Shown piece after piece: positions 3,417 through 11,168 of a DNA stretch of 13,996 nt. The stretch comes from Acidobacteriaceae bacterium (lineage in GTDB: Bacteria; Acidobacteriota; Terriglobia; Terriglobales; SbA1): the NCBI GenBank assembly GCA_019237515.1, contig JAFAGX010000535.1, positions 1 to 13,996 on the forward strand. The letters run 5' to 3'. The notes below the pieces were generated by a model. That model had not been told where the DNA came from. It did not search any database and was given only the letters and a program-made list of their open reading frames with translations. Position numbers and translations under genes: made by a program. Within the stretch, counting starts at the first letter, position 1, and each line of letters starts with the position of its first letter.

Positions 3417-4058
3417 TTACCGCGGAAAGTGGTAGTGCACATCCTGCTTCGAAGGGATTGGAACACCGTCTCGCGTAGCCGGAGCAAAATGCCATTTTTC
3501 GACCGCTGCGATCACCTTCTGATCTACAACTGGATTCAGGCTTTGCAGCACTCTCAGATCGGTGATGTTTCCGGCCGAATCAATCGTGATTTCAATGATT
3601 ACGTCCCCCGCCTCACCGTTGAGCAGCGCCGGCTCGATCACCGGATCCAGGGAGACGCTCGGCAGCGCCGGCCGCACTTCGAAACCTTTAACGGCCCCGT
3701 AGGAAAGCGATCCGTAAATCGACCCGGCGGCGGCTCCATCGTTCGCCAGCGCGAATGTTGTGGTGTTTCCTTTCTGTTGCTTTGGCGCAAGCGGCGGCAT
3801 CTGCACCCGGTGCTTGGCCGTTGTTTTCCGCGCGTAGATCTCAGGCGCCGGGCGCGCCTCTGTAACCCCGCTTGACCCACCGTAGTAAATCCGCGTCAGG
3901 GAAGTACCGCCATTGCCTTTCGTCACAAGTGAGGGCGCGACAAAGATCGGCGCAGGGCTGTGGAGAACGAAAGCCAGTAAAAGGATATGCATCGCGACCG
4001 ACGTAGCCAGCAAACACGGCTGCCGCTTCGGCGTCCCGGAACTCAGTTGCGCAAACAT
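3417..4058 (-). CDS. TonB-like energy transducer (TonB C-terminal domain protein)
   Basis: The 213-residue protein has the TonB layout. A short cytoplasmic N-terminus is followed by one hydrophobic membrane segment (LLATSVAMHILLLAFVL, about residues 16-32) and a periplasmic linker with proline- and lysine-containing stretches (about 40-135). A TonB C-terminal domain occupies about residues 137-212, recognisable by GDVIIEITIDSAGNITDLRV, the helix VDQKVIAAVEKWHFAPA, and the closing VHYHFP. Such proteins carry proton-motive energy from ExbB/ExbD to outer-membrane receptors. No exbB, exbD or TonB-dependent receptor lies nearby, so its partners are elsewhere. It diverges from the TolC-like gene across 209 nt and may share control elements with it. 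No clear ribosome binding site precedes ATG 4058. Confidence 0.85.
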   Translation of the reverse strand: MFAQLSSGTPKRQPCLLATSVAMHILLLAFVLHSPAPIFVAPSLVTKGNGGTSLTRIYYGGSSGVTEARPAPEIYARKTTAKHRVQMPPLAPKQQKGNTTTFALANDGAAAGSIYGSLSYGAVKGFEVRPALPSVSLDPVIEPALLNGEAGDVIIEITIDSAGNITDLRVLQSLNPVVDQKVIAAVEKWHFAPATRDGVPIPSKQDVHYHFPR

Positions 4059-4090
4059 TTGCCGTGTTTAGACGTCCAACCCACCCCGTC

Positions 4091-4105
4091 GGTTAGTCCC
4101 TAACC
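4091..4105. promoter_or_regulatory. Operator-like inverted repeat GGTTAG-TCC-CTAACC
   Basis: A perfect 6-bp inverted repeat with a 3-nt centre lies 32 nt upstream of the TonB-like start and in the leader of the divergent efflux operon. It has the size of a small dimeric-repressor site. A second inverted pair, GCACCTG at 4114-4120 and CAGGTGC at 4158-4164, follows with 37 nt between the arms. Neither matches an operator that I can name. Confidence 0.35.
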
Positions 4106-4185
4106 TCAAGTATGCACCTGAACGCCAGCTATATGCGAAAATCTTAATGCGGTTTTACAGGTGCGATTACTGGCTCATGCGACAC

Positions 4186-4219
4186 TTGGGCCGCCGATTG
4201 CATCTATTGGGCCGCGATT
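4186..4219 (+). promoter_or_regulatory. Tandem repeat TTGGGCCGC(C)GATT, 21-bp phase, upstream of the efflux operon
   Basis: TTGGGCCGCCGATT (4186-4199) recurs as TTGGGCCGCGATT (4207-4219), starting 21 bp later, which puts both copies on the same face of the helix. They overlap a possible promoter, TTGCAT (4198-4203) and TAGAAT (4219-4224) with a short 15-nt spacer, about 45 nt before the TolC-like ATG. This is a plausible activator or repressor array; the promoter itself is weakly supported. Confidence 0.4.
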
Positions 4220-4267
4220 AGAATCAACATCTGGTTGTTGGGTCAGTGATGTTCCTCCTTTATCACT

Positions 4268-5782
4268 ATGGAACAATCCAGCACGGGCAAGTCACTGTGG
4301 AGAAAGAGGACATCTCCTGGAAACGCGGCGGCTTTCTACCTATGCAGCATTCTTTTCATTCTGACTGGCTTGGGAACGGGCCAGATGACTACATCCACGG
4401 TTCCTGCGGCCCCGTATTCAACAACATCCGCTGCTAGCCAGTCCGGCGCCGGGGCAGGCGGCGCTTCCGGGCAGAGTCCATTTTTCGGCAGCGTGCCGGA
4501 AGGAAAAGCCACTCCGGGAATTCTGCAGTTGTCCTTTAAGGATGCGCTCGATCGCGGGCTCAGAAACAATCTCGGACTTTTGCTCCAGGGCGATACGACT
4601 CTGGCCGTGCGTGGACAAAAATGGAAGGAACTCAGTGACTTGCTTCCCCATTTAAGTGCGAGCGCGACTCAAAGCGCCGAGCAAATCGATCTGGCCGCAT
4701 TAGGATTTCGCTTTAAGTTTCCAGGTGTTTCCAACGTTATTGGCCCCGTCGGCGTCTTTCAGAGCGGCGTTTTTCTCAGCCAGTCCGTCTTTGATTACAA
4801 CGCCATTCTGCGCACGCGCGGCGCCCGTCAAAATGAAAAAGCTGCGCAATACTCGTACAAGAACGCACGCGAAGTAGTCGTGCTGGCAGTCGGAAACGCG
4901 TATCTTGTAGCCCTGGCCGGAGCGGCGCGAGTGGACACGGCAGAAGCTCAGGTGCAAACTGCGCAGGCGCTTTACGACAAAGCCGCCGATCAACAAAAGG
5001 CTGGAGTTAGCCCCGCCATCGATGTGCTTCGCGCGCGCGTCGAATTGCAAGGTCGACAAACGCAATTGATCGTGGCCAGGAACGACTACGCGAAGCAGTT
5101 GCTGCAATTGGGCCGTGTAATCGGTTTGCCTGCCGGTCAGGAGTTCACACTCGTCACCAAGGCACCCTACGAGCCGCTCGTAACTTCCAGCCTTGAAGAT
5201 GATTTGCGGCGGGCTTACCTGTCGCGTGCGGACTATCTTGCAGCCGTTCTGGAAGTTCGCGCCGCCGAAGCCCAGCGTCGCGCCGCAACCGCGCAACATT
5301 ATCCGTCAGTGGACATTGCAGGTGATTATGGTGCAGCCGGTGTTAACGTTGGCAATTCTCACGGCGTATTTCAAATCGGCGCAACTTTGAACATCCCCAT
5401 CACGGCAGGAGGCAGAACCCATGCCGACGTGCTGCAGACCGAAGCTGCCCTCCGGCAAAGCCGCCAGGAACTGGATGATCTGCGCGGCGAAATCGACTAC
5501 GAAGTCCGTGCTGCCCGCCTGGATCTGAATGCTGCTGCCGACCAGGTTGAGGTTGCCAGAAGCTCAGTCGATCTCGCCAATCAAACCTTGGTACAGGCCC
5601 GGGACCGCTTCGCCGCAGGCGTCACCGATAATCTCGAAGTGGTCCAGGCTCAGGAGGCGGTTGTCGCCGCCAATGAGAGTTATATTTCCAGCCTCTATGA
5701 ACATAATCTGGCTAAGATCGAATTGGTCAAAGCGATCGGCTTTGCCGAAGAAGGCGTGAAGCAATATTTACAAGGCAAGTAA
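4268..5782 (+). CDS. TolC-family outer-membrane efflux protein
   Basis: The 504-residue product is of usual size for the outer-membrane factor family. A signal peptide (basic KSLWRKR then AAFYLCSILFILTGLGTG, to about residue 39) is followed by a Gly/Ser/Ala-rich linker. Two repeats of the outer-membrane efflux fold follow: the first opens with LSFKDALDRGLRNNLGLLL, the second includes YPSVDIAGDYGAAG, and the last long helices contain AADQVEVARSSVDLANQTLVQA and FAAGVTDNLEVVQAQEAVVAA. Trimers of such proteins form the channel and tunnel through the outer membrane for type I secretion or multidrug pumps. ATG 4268 is the only start that keeps the signal peptide, since an in-frame TGA lies at 4247; no Shine-Dalgarno is evident. 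It is the first gene of a tight operon, with 2 nt before the adaptor gene. Confidence 0.92.
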   Translation: MEQSSTGKSLWRKRTSPGNAAAFYLCSILFILTGLGTGQMTTSTVPAAPYSTTSAASQSGAGAGGASGQSPFFGSVPEGKATPGILQLSFKDALDRGLRNNLGLLLQGDTTLAVRGQKWKELSDLLPHLSASATQSAEQIDLAALGFRFKFPGVSNVIGPVGVFQSGVFLSQSVFDYNAILRTRGARQNEKAAQYSYKNAREVVVLAVGNAYLVALAGAARVDTAEAQVQTAQALYDKAADQQKAGVSPAIDVLRARVELQGRQTQLIVARNDYAKQLLQLGRVIGLPAGQEFTLVTKAPYEPLVTSSLEDDLRRAYLSRADYLAAVLEVRAAEAQRRAATAQHYPSVDIAGDYGAAGVNVGNSHGVFQIGATLNIPITAGGRTHADVLQTEAALRQSRQELDDLRGEIDYEVRAARLDLNAAADQVEVARSSVDLANQTLVQARDRFAAGVTDNLEVVQAQEAVVAANESYISSLYEHNLAKIELVKAIGFAEEGVKQYLQGK

Positions 5783-5784
5783 AC

Positions 5785-7068
5785 ATGGCACAAGACACAG
5801 ACATTGAAGTCCACGATCGTCCAGCGCAATCCTCGGCCCCATCACCGCCCGGTCCCGGTCCACTGCCTGCATCCGACCGGGATCTGCGTTGGCGTCGTTT
5901 CAAAACACGGAGCCCAAAATTCCGGCTGTTTCTCATCATCGGTATCATTGTGCTCATCGTCGCCGGCTTCTTCCTTTGGCGCTATTTCAGCAGTTACGAG
6001 GACACCGATGACGCCCAAATCGACGGCCATCTCAACTCCGTTAGCGCGAGAATTTCCGGCCACGTCCTGAAACTTCTCGTGCAGGACAATCAGTATGTGC
6101 AGGCGGGAACCCCGCTGGTTCAAATTGACCCAAAGGATTATCAGGTAGCTTACGATCGCGCCAAAGCCGAATATGATGACGCCGTCGCCCTTGCCGAAGC
6201 TGCACACGTGAACGTGCCCATTACGTCGGTCAGTACGACTAGTCAGATTTCATCGGCTCAGGCAGACATCGAAAACGCAGAAGCTGGAATCGCCGCTGCC
6301 CGCCAGCAGTTTGACGCCGCCAATGCGCAGTTGGCAGAGGCTGAAGCCAACAACGTGAAAGCTCAGGATGATCTGGTCCGCTACCGCCAGCTAGTCGACA
6401 AGCAGGAGGTCTCGCAGCAGCAGTACGATCAGGCACTTGCGGCCGCAAAGGCCAGTGCCGCCGCCGTCACCGCGGCCCGCGCTTCGTCGCTCGCTGCCGA
6501 ACAGCAGGTACATCAGGCGAGGGCCCGGCTGCTGCAGGCGGAAGCCAATGAACGGGCCACCCGGACTGGCCCGCAGCAGGTCGCCGCCACCCGCTCCAGG
6601 GCTCAATCCGCCCTCGCGCAAGTGGAGCAGAGAAGAGCGGCATTGGATCAGGCACAGCTCAACCTCTCCTATACGCTGGTCATAGCGCCGGTGACTGGAG
6701 CTGTAACCAACCGGACGGTAGAGGTTGGACAGAACGTCTCCACGGGTCAGGAAATGATGCGCGTCATCAATTTCGACGACATCTGGGTGACTGCTAATTT
6801 CAAGGAAACGCAACTCAAGTACATGCGTGTCGGCCAGCCTGTTACCATTCACGTAGACGAAAATGGCAAGGATTACAAAGGCCACGTACAGAGCATTGCC
6901 GGCGCAACCGGTGCTATCACTAGCCTCTTGCCTCCGGAAAATGCCACCGGAAACTATGTCAAAGTGGTACAAAGGATTCCGGTGAAGATTACTTTCGATC
7001 CGGGCGAGACTAAAGAACACGTGCTGCGCCCCGGCATGTCGGTTGAGCCTAAAGTCTGGTTACGATAA
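5785..7068 (+). CDS. HlyD/EmrA-type membrane fusion (periplasmic adaptor) protein
   Basis: The 427-residue protein has a proline-rich cytoplasmic N-terminus (residues 1-30), one membrane span (LFLIIGIIVLIVAGFFLWRYF, about 48-68), and the EmrA-like signature YEDTDDAQIDGHLNSVSARI. The first half of a lipoyl-like domain is SGHVLKLLVQDNQYVQAGTP. A long Ala/Gln/Glu-rich coiled coil (about 120-300) forms the alpha-hairpin, and the second lipoyl half follows at APVTGAVTNRTVEVGQNVSTG. A beta-barrel region with FKETQLKYMRVGQPVTIHVD closes the protein. EmrA-type adaptors bridge an inner-membrane transporter to a TolC channel and usually sit beside an EmrB (MFS, DHA2) gene. Here the TolC-like gene ends 2 nt upstream, but no permease follows, so the pump partner must be encoded elsewhere or be unusual. 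Confidence 0.92.
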   Translation: MAQDTDIEVHDRPAQSSAPSPPGPGPLPASDRDLRWRRFKTRSPKFRLFLIIGIIVLIVAGFFLWRYFSSYEDTDDAQIDGHLNSVSARISGHVLKLLVQDNQYVQAGTPLVQIDPKDYQVAYDRAKAEYDDAVALAEAAHVNVPITSVSTTSQISSAQADIENAEAGIAAARQQFDAANAQLAEAEANNVKAQDDLVRYRQLVDKQEVSQQQYDQALAAAKASAAAVTAARASSLAAEQQVHQARARLLQAEANERATRTGPQQVAATRSRAQSALAQVEQRRAALDQAQLNLSYTLVIAPVTGAVTNRTVEVGQNVSTGQEMMRVINFDDIWVTANFKETQLKYMRVGQPVTIHVDENGKDYKGHVQSIAGATGAITSLLPPENATGNYVKVVQRIPVKITFDPGETKEHVLRPGMSVEPKVWLR

Positions 7069-7087
7069 CGCATCTTAAAAAATAGCT

Positions 7088-7759
7088 ATGTATAGAATCA
7101 TCACCATCGAGCGGGAGTATGGATGTGGAGCTGGCCAGATCGCGTGTCAGCTCGCTGAAAGATTGGGCTGGAAACTCTGGGATCACGCCCTCACCGAGGA
7201 AATCGCCAAACTGGCCAACGTTGAGTGCGCCGCAGTGGAGCGCTGCGAGGAACGCGCCGACAGCACCTTCCGTCGGCTGGTGAACAGTTTTCTTCGCGGC
7301 AGCTACGAAAGCCGCATGTCCGCCGCGGGGAATGAGCCTTTCAACACGGATCGCTTCGTGGACGTGGGCCACACAGTTATGGAGAACGTCGCCAAGAACG
7401 GAAATGGCGTGATCGTGGGCCGAGGAGCGCCCTACTTTTTGCGTGAACGCGCCGACGTTTTTCACGTCTTCTTATACGCCCCGTTTCCAGAGAAAGTCCG
7501 TCGCCTCAAATTGCTCGGCAAAAGCCAGCAGGAAGCGGAACACTTGCTGGATAACATCGATCGCGAGCGCATCGAGTTTGTGAAACGCTATTTCGATGCG
7601 GACTGGCCGACCCGGTCCCTGTACCACCTTATGATCAACACGGCCATCGGGAATGAAAACGTCATTTCGATAGTTTTAGACAGCATGTGCGTCTTTGAGA
7701 AAGGCCCCATTCGCGTACAGCCGCCAACTCATTCCGGTGAACAAGTCTCTACACAATAA
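7088..7759 (+). CDS. Cytidylate kinase-like family protein
   Basis: The 223-residue product begins MYRIITIEREYGCGAGQIAC, the N-terminal pattern of the cytidylate-kinase-like family. A strand leading to a glycine-rich turn is followed by a helix ERLGWKLWDHALTEEIAKLA. Further landmarks are GVIVGRGAPYFL (residues 107-118), the strand VFHVFLYAPF and the lid-like helix DNIDRERIEFVKRYFDADW. In true CMP kinases the loop is GxxGxGKS/T; here GCGAGQIA has no lysine. Weak or altered nucleotide binding is therefore likely, and phosphorylation of CMP cannot be assumed. The last 40 or so residues look unordered. The gene starts 19 nt after the adaptor stop and overlaps the next gene, so it belongs to the efflux operon. 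No clear ribosome binding site is seen, which suggests translation coupled to the gene upstream. Confidence 0.8.
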   Translation: MYRIITIEREYGCGAGQIACQLAERLGWKLWDHALTEEIAKLANVECAAVERCEERADSTFRRLVNSFLRGSYESRMSAAGNEPFNTDRFVDVGHTVMENVAKNGNGVIVGRGAPYFLRERADVFHVFLYAPFPEKVRRLKLLGKSQQEAEHLLDNIDRERIEFVKRYFDADWPTRSLYHLMINTAIGNENVISIVLDSMCVFEKGPIRVQPPTHSGEQVSTQ

Positions 7760-8438
7760 GATCGCCCTGGTTACGGGTGCCAACGGTGGTTTGGGAATGT
7801 CCGTTACACGGGCGCTTCTCGATGCAGGAGCGACCGTCGTCGGCGTTGCACGGCATATTGAACAGAAGGAGTTCGACAATCCTTCCTTCGTTGCAATTAC
7901 CGCCGAGCTTACCAATGCTGACGCGGCCCAAAAAACAGTCGATGAGGTTCTGTCCAGCTTTGGCAAGATCGATATTCTCGCGCATCTGGTCGGTGGTTTC
8001 GCCGGTGGGAAGACCATTGTCGAACTCGACGACGCCACTTTCGAGAAAATGCTGGACTTAAACTTGCGAAGCGCTTTTTACGTTCTCCGGGCGGTTGTCC
8101 CGCACATGCGACGTGCGGGAAGTGGCAGAATCATTGCGATTGGCAGCCGTGCCGCTGAAGATCCTGGCCCGGGTGTCGGCGCGTACAGCCTTTCCAAAGC
8201 CGCTCTCGTCTCCCTCGTCCGAACCGTGGCCCGCGAAAACAAACAGCAGGCCATAACTGCAAACGTCGTACTTCCGGGCACCATCGATACGCCCGCCAAC
8301 CGCGATGCCATGCCCGGGGCCGATCGTCGCACCTGGGTCCAACCGGACTCAATCGCTTCCCTGATCGTCTGGCTTGCCAGCGACCCAGGAAGAGACGTGA
8401 ACGGCGCAGTGATTCCCGTGTACGGGGCCGGAGTGTAA
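7737..8438 (+). CDS. Short-chain dehydrogenase/reductase (SDR)
   Basis: From a GTG at 7737 the product has 234 residues. It has the NAD(P)-binding TGANGGLG (residues 13-20), Asn109 in DLNLRSAF, catalytic Ser137 in IAIGSRAA, and Tyr150/Lys154 in AYSLSK, so the Ser-Tyr-Lys set and structural Asn are complete. The PGTIDTP segment marks the substrate-side loop. The usual NNAG after strand 4 is replaced by AHLVGG followed by FAGG, which I recall from a subset of classical SDRs. Substrate unknown. The frame also opens at a TTG at 7695, but that would add 14 residues with no counterpart in the fold; GTG 7737 begins right before the first strand. It overlaps the kinase-like gene by 23 nt, which suggests coupled translation, and closes the efflux operon. 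Confidence 0.88.
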   Translation: MNKSLHNKIALVTGANGGLGMSVTRALLDAGATVVGVARHIEQKEFDNPSFVAITAELTNADAAQKTVDEVLSSFGKIDILAHLVGGFAGGKTIVELDDATFEKMLDLNLRSAFYVLRAVVPHMRRAGSGRIIAIGSRAAEDPGPGVGAYSLSKAALVSLVRTVARENKQQAITANVVLPGTIDTPANRDAMPGADRRTWVQPDSIASLIVWLASDPGRDVNGAVIPVYGAGV

Positions 8439-8470
8439 AGATTCATCGCAGTATCCGCCGTAACCTCGCC

Positions 8471-8492
8471 AGTGCACCTTTTTTGCTGCACT
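8471..8492 (+). terminator. Weak hairpin after the efflux operon
   Basis: AGTGCA (8471-8476) and TGCACT (8487-8492) pair perfectly around a 10-nt loop that contains the T run; only TTAAC follows. It sits 32 nt after the SDR stop, where a terminator is expected, but it lacks a T tract after the stem, so it may be a different kind of RNA hairpin. Confidence 0.3.
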
Positions 8493-8557
8493 TTAACACT
8501 CCTGCAACATTCCGCCCTTAGCATAAGAATGTCCGGATTTGCCATGGAGAACGCGAT

Positions 8558-9046
8558 TTGGCTACGTCTCGCCTGCCTCGTTTCGCGCTGCCCCTACAGG
8601 TAGCGGCGGTCTGCTACCGTCGGCGCGGCCCGGACATCGAATTCCTGCTCGTCAACACAAATGGCGGGGGAAAGTGGACGTTTCCCAAGGGAGCTCCCGA
8701 ACACGGCATTTCCCACAGCCAGGCAGCCGAGCAGGAGGCCTGGGAAGAAGCTGGAGTCCGCGGGCACATCGAGACCCGGCACTTTCACCTCTATCTTCAC
8801 TCGAAAGGCGTCTTCTGGAAGCCTCCAGGTGTGCGCGAGTTCGTCATCAAAGCTTTCCTGATGGAAGTGGATGCCATTGAGCCCGGCCACGAACCCGAGC
8901 GAAATCCTACCTGGTTCTCTTCCGACGACGCCAAGAAGATTCTCGCTAAAGGCCGCGAAGTGAAGTACGCGCACGAAATGCAGGCTGTGATCGACAGAGC
9001 AGTCCAGCGTTTGAATGGTGCCGCAAAGCTGAACGTCACCGAGTAA
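8558..9046 (+). CDS. NUDIX hydrolase
   Basis: The 162-residue protein has the NUDIX box region at residues 45-67: FPKGAPEHGISHSQAAEQEA runs into WEEAGV. The essential EExG helix is kept, while the first box glutamate (GE in the classic motif) is Ile and the RE pair is QE. The form FPKG...G(I/L)S...AA..EAWEEAGV is one I recall from NUDIX enzymes related to diphosphoinositol/dinucleoside polyphosphate hydrolases, so the change may be normal for the subfamily. These enzymes cleave nucleoside diphosphates linked to other groups. The start is TTG at 8558: GGAG at 8546-8549 lies 8 nt upstream, an in-frame TAG lies at 8519, and no ATG exists in this frame between them. It is a single gene, 119 nt after the SDR. 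Confidence 0.86.
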   Translation: MATSRLPRFALPLQVAAVCYRRRGPDIEFLLVNTNGGGKWTFPKGAPEHGISHSQAAEQEAWEEAGVRGHIETRHFHLYLHSKGVFWKPPGVREFVIKAFLMEVDAIEPGHEPERNPTWFSSDDAKKILAKGREVKYAHEMQAVIDRAVQRLNGAAKLNVTE

Positions 9047-9070
9047 CGCCACCTTGTGCTCTAAATATCT

Positions 9071-9127
9071 GTCATCCTGAGCGAGGTCGTCCTGCGCAAT
9101 TGCGCGAGACAACGCAGTCGAAGGACC
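9071..9127. repeat. REP-like intergenic repeat with central palindrome
   Basis: The element starts GTCATCCTGAGCGAGG and ends CGCAGTCGAAGGACC. The middle holds a perfect 12-bp palindrome, GCGCAATTGCGC (9094-9105), with flanks GTCGTCCT and GAGACAAC that extend the pairing imperfectly. I recognise the two end motifs from dispersed intergenic repeats of acidobacterial and some other genomes. It lies in the 193-nt gap between the NUDIX and ABC-F genes; only one copy is visible in this window. Confidence 0.6.
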
Positions 9128-9239
9128 CCTTTTAGCTCTCCTGCTGTCACATGCCTTTCAAGAAATCCCTCATCAGCACCAAGTCGCAGCGCCCCATGCT
9201 TCTGCAAACCGCCCCTCTCATGAGACGATTGAATTATCC

Positions 9240-11168
9240 ATGATTCAGTTGTCTTCAGCCGGAAAGCGCTATGGCCAGAAGCTCCTGTTCGAAGGAGTCG
9301 ATTGGCTGATCACCAATCGCGACCGCGTCGGCTTGGTCGGCGCGAATGGCACAGGCAAATCCACCCTGCTGAAAATTCTCGGCGATTTGGAGACCCTCGA
9401 TTACGGCTCGATCAGCACTGCCAAAGGAATCAGCGCCGGATATTTGCCGCAAGAAGGCCTGACACTGTCCGGCCAAACCGTCTTCGCGGAGTGCATGTCG
9501 GTGTTTTCCGACCTGCGCGACATGGAGCGCGAAATGGAAGAGCTGACCGCGCGCATGTCCGAAGTCGACCACGCCTTGCCCGAATACACGCAAATCGCCG
9601 ACCGCTATCAACGTCTCGAGCATGAATTTCAAACCCGGGACGGCTACGCGATTGAGGCGCAAGTCGGCAGTGTGCTGATGGGTTTAGGTTTCGGCAAAGA
9701 AGACTGGCACCGGCAAACCGACGAATTCTCCGGTGGCTGGCAAATGCGCATGGCCCTCGCCAAGTTGCTCCTGGAAAAACCTAACCTGTTATTGCTCGAC
9801 GAGCCCACCAACCACCTTGACCTTGAAGCACGAAACTGGCTGGAAGAATATCTGTCGAATTATCCCTACACATTCGTCCTGATCTCCCACGACCGCTATT
9901 TTCTTGACGTGACCGTCAGCAAGATCGTCGAGATTTGGAATAAGAGAATCCACTTCTACCCGGGCAATTACGAGCATTATCTCGAGCAAAAGACCCAACG
10001 CCAGGAGCAGCTTGAGGCCGCGTATCGCAACCAACGCGAACGCATCGAGCAACTGGAAGTATTCATCAACCGATTTCGCTATCAAGCCACAAAAGCCAAG
10101 CAGGTGCAGAGCCGCATCAAGGAACTCGAGAGGATCGATCGCATCGAACTGCCGGAAGAAGAAAAGACGATCCATTTTTCCTTTCCGCAACCTAAGCAGA
10201 GCGGCAGGATTGTGGCTGAATTCGCCGCCGTGGCAAAGTCCTATGGACAGAAAGACGTCTTTCGCGACGTGAATTTCATGATCGAGCGCGGTGACCGCAT
10301 CGCACTCGTAGGCGTAAACGGCGCCGGAAAATCAACCCTGATCAAGTTGCTGGCGGGCAGGGAAGAGTTGACTGCGGGCGAATACAAGTTCGGGCATAAC
10401 GTCCAATCCGACTACTTCGCGCAGGATCAATACAAGGAGCTCGACGCAAACGCACGAATTTTGGACGACATCGGCACACTCTCTCCGCGTTCCACAGAAA
10501 CTGAACTGCGTAGCTTGCTAGGTTGCTTCCTCTTCTCCGCCGATGAGGTTTTCAAGCGCATCGGGGTTCTCTCGGGAGGCGAGCGCAACCGTTACGCGCT
10601 GTTGCGAATGCTTCTCCATCCGGCGAATTTCCTGCTTCTCGACGAGCCCACCAATCACCTCGATATCCGGGCGAAGGATGTCCTTCTCGAAGCTTTATCC
10701 AAGTACACCGGAACCGTGGTCTTCGTCTCTCACGACCGCTACTTCATCGATAAGCTCGCCACCCGCGTCTTCGAAATCGGTAACGGCCGCGTCGAAGTCT
10801 ATCCCGGCAATTACGAAGATTATCGCTGGCGAAAAGAGGGTGGAGCTGCAAAGTTGCAGGAGAGCGTTGAAGCGGCGACGGTGACTACGCCGCTTCAGCC
10901 CGGCAACGGCGATCATTCTCATGCGTCCGACGGTAAATCAAAGCGGCTGAATCCCATCAAGCGCAAGCAAATGGAAGATCGCGTTCGCGAACTGGAAGCA
11001 GAAATCAGTCGCACAGAATCAGCCATCGCCGACTGCGAAACCGGGCTGCAAACTTTCGTCAGCGCTGAGGAAACCACGCGCCTCTCACAGGAACTGGATC
11101 AGCAGCGGAGTGCCCTGAAACTCCACCTTTCCGAGTGGGAAGACTTGGCCAAAGCACTCGAGGTCTAG
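9240..11168 (+). CDS. ABC-F family ATPase (ribosome-associated type)
   Basis: The 642-residue soluble protein has two ABC domains and no membrane span. Domain 1 has Walker A GANGTGKST (34-42), signature FSGGWQ (163-168), Walker B LLLLDEP (183-189) with NHLD, and switch HD at ISHDRYF. Domain 2 has GVNGAGKST (358-366), LSGGERNR (444-451), FLLLDEP (464-470) and VSHDRYF. The roughly 80-residue linker between them (about 240-320) is charged and helical, as in ABC-F proteins that contact tRNA in the ribosomal E site. A C-terminal extension (about 570-640, KRKQMEDRVRELEAEISRTE...) is predicted to be coiled coil, as in Uup and several housekeeping ABC-Fs. It probably acts in translation; antibiotic protection cannot be inferred from the linker by eye. 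ATG 9240 gives the standard N-terminus; the ribosome binding site is weak. Confidence 0.92.
   Translation: MIQLSSAGKRYGQKLLFEGVDWLITNRDRVGLVGANGTGKSTLLKILGDLETLDYGSISTAKGISAGYLPQEGLTLSGQTVFAECMSVFSDLRDMEREMEELTARMSEVDHALPEYTQIADRYQRLEHEFQTRDGYAIEAQVGSVLMGLGFGKEDWHRQTDEFSGGWQMRMALAKLLLEKPNLLLLDEPTNHLDLEARNWLEEYLSNYPYTFVLISHDRYFLDVTVSKIVEIWNKRIHFYPGNYEHYLEQKTQRQEQLEAAYRNQRERIEQLEVFINRFRYQATKAKQVQSRIKELERIDRIELPEEEKTIHFSFPQPKQSGRIVAEFAAVAKSYGQKDVFRDVNFMIERGDRIALVGVNGAGKSTLIKLLAGREELTAGEYKFGHNVQSDYFAQDQYKELDANARILDDIGTLSPRSTETELRSLLGCFLFSADEVFKRIGVLSGGERNRYALLRMLLHPANFLLLDEPTNHLDIRAKDVLLEALSKYTGTVVFVSHDRYFIDKLATRVFEIGNGRVEVYPGNYEDYRWRKEGGAAKLQESVEAATVTTPLQPGNGDHSHASDGKSKRLNPIKRKQMEDRVRELEAEISRTESAIADCETGLQTFVSAEETTRLSQELDQQRSALKLHLSEWEDLAKALEV

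Follow-up and report, generated by a model that had tools for sequence, protein, structure and literature searches.

A tripartite efflux pump that is probably split across the chromosome, and not broken, was identified by following up a 13,996-nucleotide contig of an Acidobacteriaceae bacterium (NCBI GenBank assembly GCA_019237515.1, contig JAFAGX010000535.1), hereafter the window. The window encodes, in one compact row, a TolC-family outer-membrane channel, an EmrA/HlyD-type periplasmic adaptor, a kinase-like protein of the Cytidylate_kin2 family (PF13189), and a short-chain dehydrogenase/reductase (SDR), with no inner-membrane permease among them. The explanation that we favor, with moderate confidence and from sequence comparisons, is that an adaptor operon of this kind uses an EmrB-type permease encoded at an unlinked position. 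The locus would represent the channel-adaptor half of an exporter of the EmrAB-TolC type (DHA2, major facilitator superfamily, MFS) in a Terriglobia acidobacterium, where the permease gene between the adaptor and kinase genes would have been cleanly lost and the adaptor would assemble with a stand-alone EmrB-type permease from another part of the genome. Lineages in which both permeases once coexisted seem to have retained one or the other. The kinase-like gene would stay in the operon either way, and the SDR gene would merely be a local passenger. Regarding the window itself, we infer from its relatives that the adaptor and the solo permease bind each other and export together, that an ancestor carried both permeases, and that the window genome has the solo gene.

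The arrangement was compared among loci found with a profile of 30 kinase homologues, where 80 of the 90 confirmed matches were used (loci are labeled L and genomes G; L001 and L002 belong to G001 and G002). These loci came from GTDB genomes with Acidobacteriota in their titles; most were of the Terriglobia kind, and one belonged to the Bryobacterales. In 52 of the 80 loci, the adaptor and kinase genes were separated by 1482-1867 nucleotides (nt) holding an EmrB-type open reading frame (ORF), and in 14 they were adjacent with no permease. An adaptor was not seen in the remaining 14, which included nine with the stretch cut off and five with room to see one. A permease was hence present in 52 and missing in 14 of the 66 loci that contain both genes. 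All eight gap-filling proteins given to NCBIfam were assigned to EmrB (TIGR00711; 456-498 bits, cut-off 230), and a complete TolC-adaptor-EmrB-kinase order was also found in the distant named strain Silvibacterium bohemicum (L076). Because the permease-bearing order occurs in most relatives and in this distant strain, it is most likely ancestral, and the order in the window most likely the result of a loss. The permease-less loci had 13-52 nt between the adaptor stop and the kinase start in 13 of 14 cases, while the two frames overlap in L026. A sequence-only reading of the window had named such a comparison beforehand as its refuting test, where a permease between the two genes in close relatives would point to a recent loss. 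The permease was found (52 of 66), but a recent loss proved too simple a description, since the permease-less loci do not group in a single clade and purifying selection acts on the operon in its permease-less form.

Several loci deviated from the two common layouts. The operon permease of L044 (8504-9986) is broken into two ORFs of 308 and 222 amino acids (aa), which may reflect either a sequencing error or a permease under loss. In L065 (114-2431), the kinase gene is followed by an EmrB-type ORF (781 bits with the operon profile) and the upstream part is cut off, perhaps representing another permease gene located behind the kinase gene, as in G146 described below. Additionally, second operons of a different lineage with the order adaptor-EmrB-kinase were found in G001 (L128, with an extra ORF before the kinase gene) and G004 (L129, where a TolC gene was seen), such that each of the two genomes holds one permease-less and one permease-bearing set.

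The question of an orphan permease was answered in relatives of the window genome only. When the 14 permease-less genomes were searched with a profile of operon permeases, 13 yielded an EmrB-class permease scoring 587-645 bits, and the additional, higher-scoring permeases of G001 and G004 lay inside their second, permease-bearing operons. A second profile (A3) was built from 11 of the lone permeases, G010 not being among them. It matched at 1041-1081 bits in 12 of the 14 permease-less genomes, each time on a contig other than that of the operon. Among the permease-bearing genomes, the top score was 703 bits, and this solo type was found in none of 38 (38 of the 52 loci tested). The 16 solo sequences included in the permease tree formed one clade with a support of 100 in the Shimodaira-Hasegawa-like approximate likelihood ratio test (SH-aLRT), and the two that were tested passed the EmrB model TIGR00711 at 496-497 bits (cut-off 230). 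The stretches of 6-20 kb containing the 12 solo genes (L111-L122) showed neither a TolC nor an adaptor orthologue; in G010 and G013, the contig starts less than 500 nt upstream of the gene, leaving one side out of view. The earlier suggestion that the permease is supplied from elsewhere is thus probably right, the solo EmrB type being present in these 12 of 14 permease-less relatives.

The number of candidate partners per genome points in the same direction. At E up to 1e-40, the adaptor of the operon described here was the only EmrA-like one found in 13 of 16 permease-less genomes, and G001, G003, and G004 had more than one. Nine of 14 genomes (G002, G003, and G007-G013) had one EmrB-class permease above 300 bits with the operon-permease profile, and this permease is of the solo type in all nine. 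Where a draft genome holds a single adaptor and a single permease, both without a partner, this suggests that the two work together.

Across 69 rows of known state, with G146 counted as permease-less, the strict solo type was found in 17 of 21 permease-less rows versus none of 48 permease-bearing rows (Fisher test 1e-12, which ignores kinship). Additional genomes were drawn from a set of 300, of which 39 contained a close adaptor; the seven untried ones were taken as a further test together with G141, whose operon state was readable beforehand. An operon permease and no solo type were found in G265, G247, G242, G334, G352, and G141. The other two, G256 and G237, had no operon permease and encoded a permease that is of the solo type by score and was not placed in the tree, which is a 213-aa fragment in G256 (379 vs 171 bits) and scores 851 vs 506 bits in G237, where the kinase start was read from the last bases of a contig. 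In an order sample of 200 genomes, eight had matches of more than 990 bits to the solo profile. These included four already-known permease-less genomes (G002, G004, G009, and G014), G157 with its adaptor at a contig end, and G139, G148, and G170, which encode a TolC-adaptor pair without a permease, a kinase gene elsewhere, and a solo permease elsewhere. Most of the matches of 800-845 bits in this sample directly adjoined an adaptor of their own, and the solo clade therefore seems to be derived from a second EmrAB family.

Two features of the surroundings of the solo gene were recorded. In 7 of the 12 genomes (L111-L114, L116, L117, and L120), it adjoins genes of siroheme and sulfate metabolism, namely a CysG-like gene, a tetrapyrrole methylase, and a 3'-phosphoadenosine 5'-phosphosulfate (PAPS) reductase. 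The siroheme locus contained no permease in nine permease-bearing genomes (some of the stretches being short), nor in G002, G009, and G012, where the solo gene lies elsewhere. In G139, G148, and G170 (L228, L229, and L230 with L195-L200), the TolC-adaptor pair, the kinase gene, and the solo EmrB gene occupy three contigs, and the export set is fully dispersed.

A number of observations weigh against a split pump. Independent contrasts amounted to three to four pairs in one count and four to five in another, too few for significance in a sign test; they showed the expected direction or no difference, and under looser counting 0.3 pairs on average were reversed. The nearest relative of the window with a genome, G001, has no solo gene and only a 707-bit cousin, and G006 (2.6 Mb) has neither a solo gene nor any EmrB-class permease. 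The two assemblies are drafts; that of G001 yielded just a 193-position piece of rpoB and no siroheme methylase. Almost all of the genomes compared are draft bins whose completeness is not stated, such that an absence from any one of them carries little weight. In G138, which has no operon permease, the lone permease (875 bits) is placed outside the solo clade, and G152 and G189 have kept the operon permease in addition to a lone permease (863-867 bits) that is likewise outside this clade. The solo gene of G004 coexists with its second operon, and 4 of the 14 permease-less genomes encode more than one EmrB-class permease. The adaptors of G139, G148, and G170 belong to a distant lineage, and G139 has a second adaptor match. 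Finally, a 417-aa ORF with a weak adaptor likeness (32% identity, E 2e-7) lies 1.9 kb downstream of the solo gene in G002.

Two further genomes contained additional permeases. G171 encodes a complete operon as well as a second TolC-adaptor-permease set. In G146 (L190, 6818-13312, minus strand), a TolC-adaptor-kinase block directly precedes two EmrB-type permease genes, which score 905 and 735 bits with the solo profile, and the position of the 905-bit permease links the wider family of the solo gene to the adaptor-kinase block.

The strongest alternative, which we nevertheless regard as unlikely, is that the TolC-adaptor pair now serves a different inner-membrane transporter, of the resistance-nodulation-division (RND), ATP-binding cassette (ABC), or another MFS family, while the solo EmrB works alone or with another adaptor. 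Some DHA2 transporters function without an adaptor. The classification of the window adaptor is compatible with this alternative, as its best NCBIfam match, EmrA/EmrK (TIGR00998), reached 242 bits and remained below the cut-off of 390.8, and the only listed NCBIfam model whose cut-off it passes is RND_mfp (TIGR01730, 130 vs 94.9 bits). However, orthologous adaptors directly adjoin EmrB in 52 of 66 loci, on account of which the adaptor was tentatively assigned to a DHA2 pump. The adaptor-like ORF near the solo gene of G002 could be counted as a separate partner, but no further EmrA-like adaptor (E up to 1e-40) was found in 13 of 16 draft genomes, the two tested solo permeases pass the EmrB subfamily model, and the solo gene alternates with the operon permease.

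The kinase-like gene was located within the pump operon in 66 of the 71 loci with room to see it, whether a permease was present or not. The comparison of loci indicates that the gene has long belonged to an ordinary pump operon, and the claim of the sequence-only reading that the kinase and SDR stand in place of the pump was not supported. Related kinase genes without an adaptor nearby were found in the other five loci with room, as well as in L195, L197, L199, L206, L207, and L208. While the protein passed the Pfam model PF13189, it scored 38.9 bits against the (d)CMP kinase model TIGR02173, below the cut-off of 102.1, and is thus not recognized as a (d)CMP kinase by the curated model. Its closest solved structure is 3hdt (1.9e-13), which together with 3fdi represents PF13189, with a sequence match covering most of the window protein; the two were deposited as 'putative kinase' and 'uncharacterized protein' and offer no function to transfer. 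Classical CMP kinases have the Walker A lysine at the position of the N-terminal loop, which reads EREYGCGAGQ in the window protein and is mostly conserved in the 30 homologues.

The SDR gene demonstrated a different distribution. Among the 80 loci, it adjoins the kinase gene only in the window and in L002, besides an SDR of 27% identity at 2 kb distance in L070. Homologues with 59-69% identity were found in 9 of 22 genomes searched, adjoining the kinase gene in one (G002, the genome of L002) and lying on another contig in the other eight. A role of the SDR as a pump part was accordingly rejected, and it is probably a local passenger. The sequence-only reading had also considered that finding the two enzymes mostly away from efflux genes would speak against a joint unit, which turned out to apply to the SDR (eight of nine genomes) but not to the kinase (66 of 71 loci). 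These distributions make it improbable that the four genes form a new unit in which the enzymes modify what is exported or link export to nucleotide state. The long association of the kinase with the operon and the tight spacing and overlap of the genes in the window would be expected of such a unit, but the SDR is not conserved at the locus, and related kinase genes also stand without a nearby adaptor.

The permease-less state was scattered across the phylogenies. In a tree of TolC, adaptor, and kinase sequences (65 rows), the 15 permease-less rows need four changes, three of which are forced by well-supported branches; as 19 of its 62 branches are open, the losses are only bounded, with at least four changes and three forced. 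A single permease-less clade was rejected on this tree (approximately unbiased test, p-AU 3.45e-5). The rpoB tree required five changes, three of them forced, and showed no single clade, although it is weak: it covers 27 of 33 genomes, the row of L186 (G001) is in a wrong reading frame with a branch length of 10, and that of L160 (G045) is long. Ratios of nonsynonymous to synonymous substitution rates (dN/dS), which are rough because dS is near saturation in most pairs and saturated between the window and L001, were low throughout. In the permease-less pair L008-L011, they were 0.08 for TolC, 0.04 for the adaptor, and 0.03 for the kinase, and that for the adaptor of L009-L029 was 0.08. The solo permease gave 0.04 (G004-G010) and 0.08 (G170-G148), and the adaptor of the dispersed type 0.10 (G170-G148). 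The operon is under purifying selection without its permease, which speaks against decay. Although the absence is clean with no remnant, and a deletion alone would be the simplest event, it is very improbable that the operon is a remainder on its way out after pump loss and the solo permease a coincidence, given that divergent permease-less lineages have kept TolC, adaptor, and kinase intact (dN/dS about 0.03-0.08 at near-saturated dS) and that the state is spread across several lineages.

Features of the window are listed in Table 1. The gene order and spacing that had been read from the letters were reproduced from the ORFs and the sequence, with 2 nt between TolC and adaptor, 19 nt between adaptor and kinase, and a 23-nt overlap of kinase and SDR (7737-7759). 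The SDR was taken to start at the in-frame GTG at 7737, and the ORF list also contains a longer TTG start at 7695.

Table 1. Coordinates of the efflux locus and downstream genes in the window.
Feature	Position	Strand	Evidence or context
TolC-family outer-membrane channel, 504 aa	4268..5782	+	Pfam OEP 1.4e-43; 69% identical orthologue in the same place in L001
EmrA/HlyD-type periplasmic adaptor, 427 aa	5785..7068	+	HlyD_3 5.2e-21, HlyD_D23 4.4e-17, and Biotin_lipoyl_2, all above cut-offs
Adaptor-kinase junction, 19 nt	7069..7087	+	Site of the EmrB/DHA2 permease gene (~530 codons) in 52 of 66 relatives
Cytidylate_kin2 (PF13189) kinase-like protein, 223 aa	7088..7759	+	Pfam 1.7e-41
Short-chain dehydrogenase/reductase (SDR), 233 aa	7737..8438	+	adh_short 2.4e-42
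NUDIX gene	8558-9046		Downstream of SDR
ABC-F gene	9240-11168		Downstream of NUDIX

Ten of the listed ORFs were included in the Pfam scan. The TolC protein, which passed OEP, scored 139 bits against TIGR01844, below the cut-off of 225. The adaptor begins with a hydrophobic stretch, as read from its sequence, and is 78% identical to the adaptor of G001 at L001. The absence of a permease at the locus, stated by the earlier reading, was confirmed: searches of the whole window by tblastn with one operon-type and one solo-type query found no permease or remnant, only short chance matches (best E 4.1), and a relocation of the permease inside the window was thereby ruled out. As a promoter and terminator scan of positions 4000-9300 yielded nothing above chance, we infer a single transcript from the spacing of the genes only. 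The NUDIX and ABC-F genes (8558-11168) follow the kinase gene in several loci, permease-bearing and permease-less alike, and represent a conserved neighborhood.

A broader proposal, which is tentative and more doubtful than the split pump itself, is that channel, adaptor, and kinase constitute a stable export module of Terriglobia with an exchangeable permease. Two EmrB types of about 47% identity would serve the same adaptor, lineages would retain one of the two, and the kinase would follow the adaptor and not the permease, such that its target may be the cargo or the assembly process rather than the permease. Two diverged permeases alternating around one adaptor would provide a concrete pair, and a natural experiment, for studying how EmrA recognizes EmrB. 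Neighborhood rules that pair an adaptor with the adjoining permease would miss the pump in such genomes or call it broken. Additionally, the comparison shows that a PF13189 protein has accompanied an export system over the long term.

Among the titles and abstract openings listed for the terms searched in the open literature, none reported a solo EmrB accompanying an EmrA-TolC operon, or an efflux operon with a PF13189 gene. A review describes adaptor and MFS genes as usually sharing one operon and gives AcrAD-TolC as an extreme case with all of its genes at different loci (PMC8277102). A lone permease there uses an adaptor encoded elsewhere, which resembles the arrangement proposed here, and a split pump is therefore an already known kind. 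Within the scope of the same search, no precedent was found for a DHA2 channel-adaptor-kinase block with repeated losses of its permease and retention of a lone EmrB type. The proposed pump would have the same three types of parts as the DHA2 MFS exporters EmrAB-TolC of E. coli and EmrAB-EmrC of Chromobacterium violaceum, and the permease-bearing relatives of the locus, like these systems, keep channel, adaptor, and EmrB in one operon. Unlike them, the window and its permease-less relatives have the channel and adaptor together, the permease gone, and a PF13189 gene attached. The difference from AcrAD-TolC lies in the transporter family, which is RND there and not MFS, and in the adaptor operon: AcrA keeps its own permease, AcrB, while the adaptor operon described here has none.

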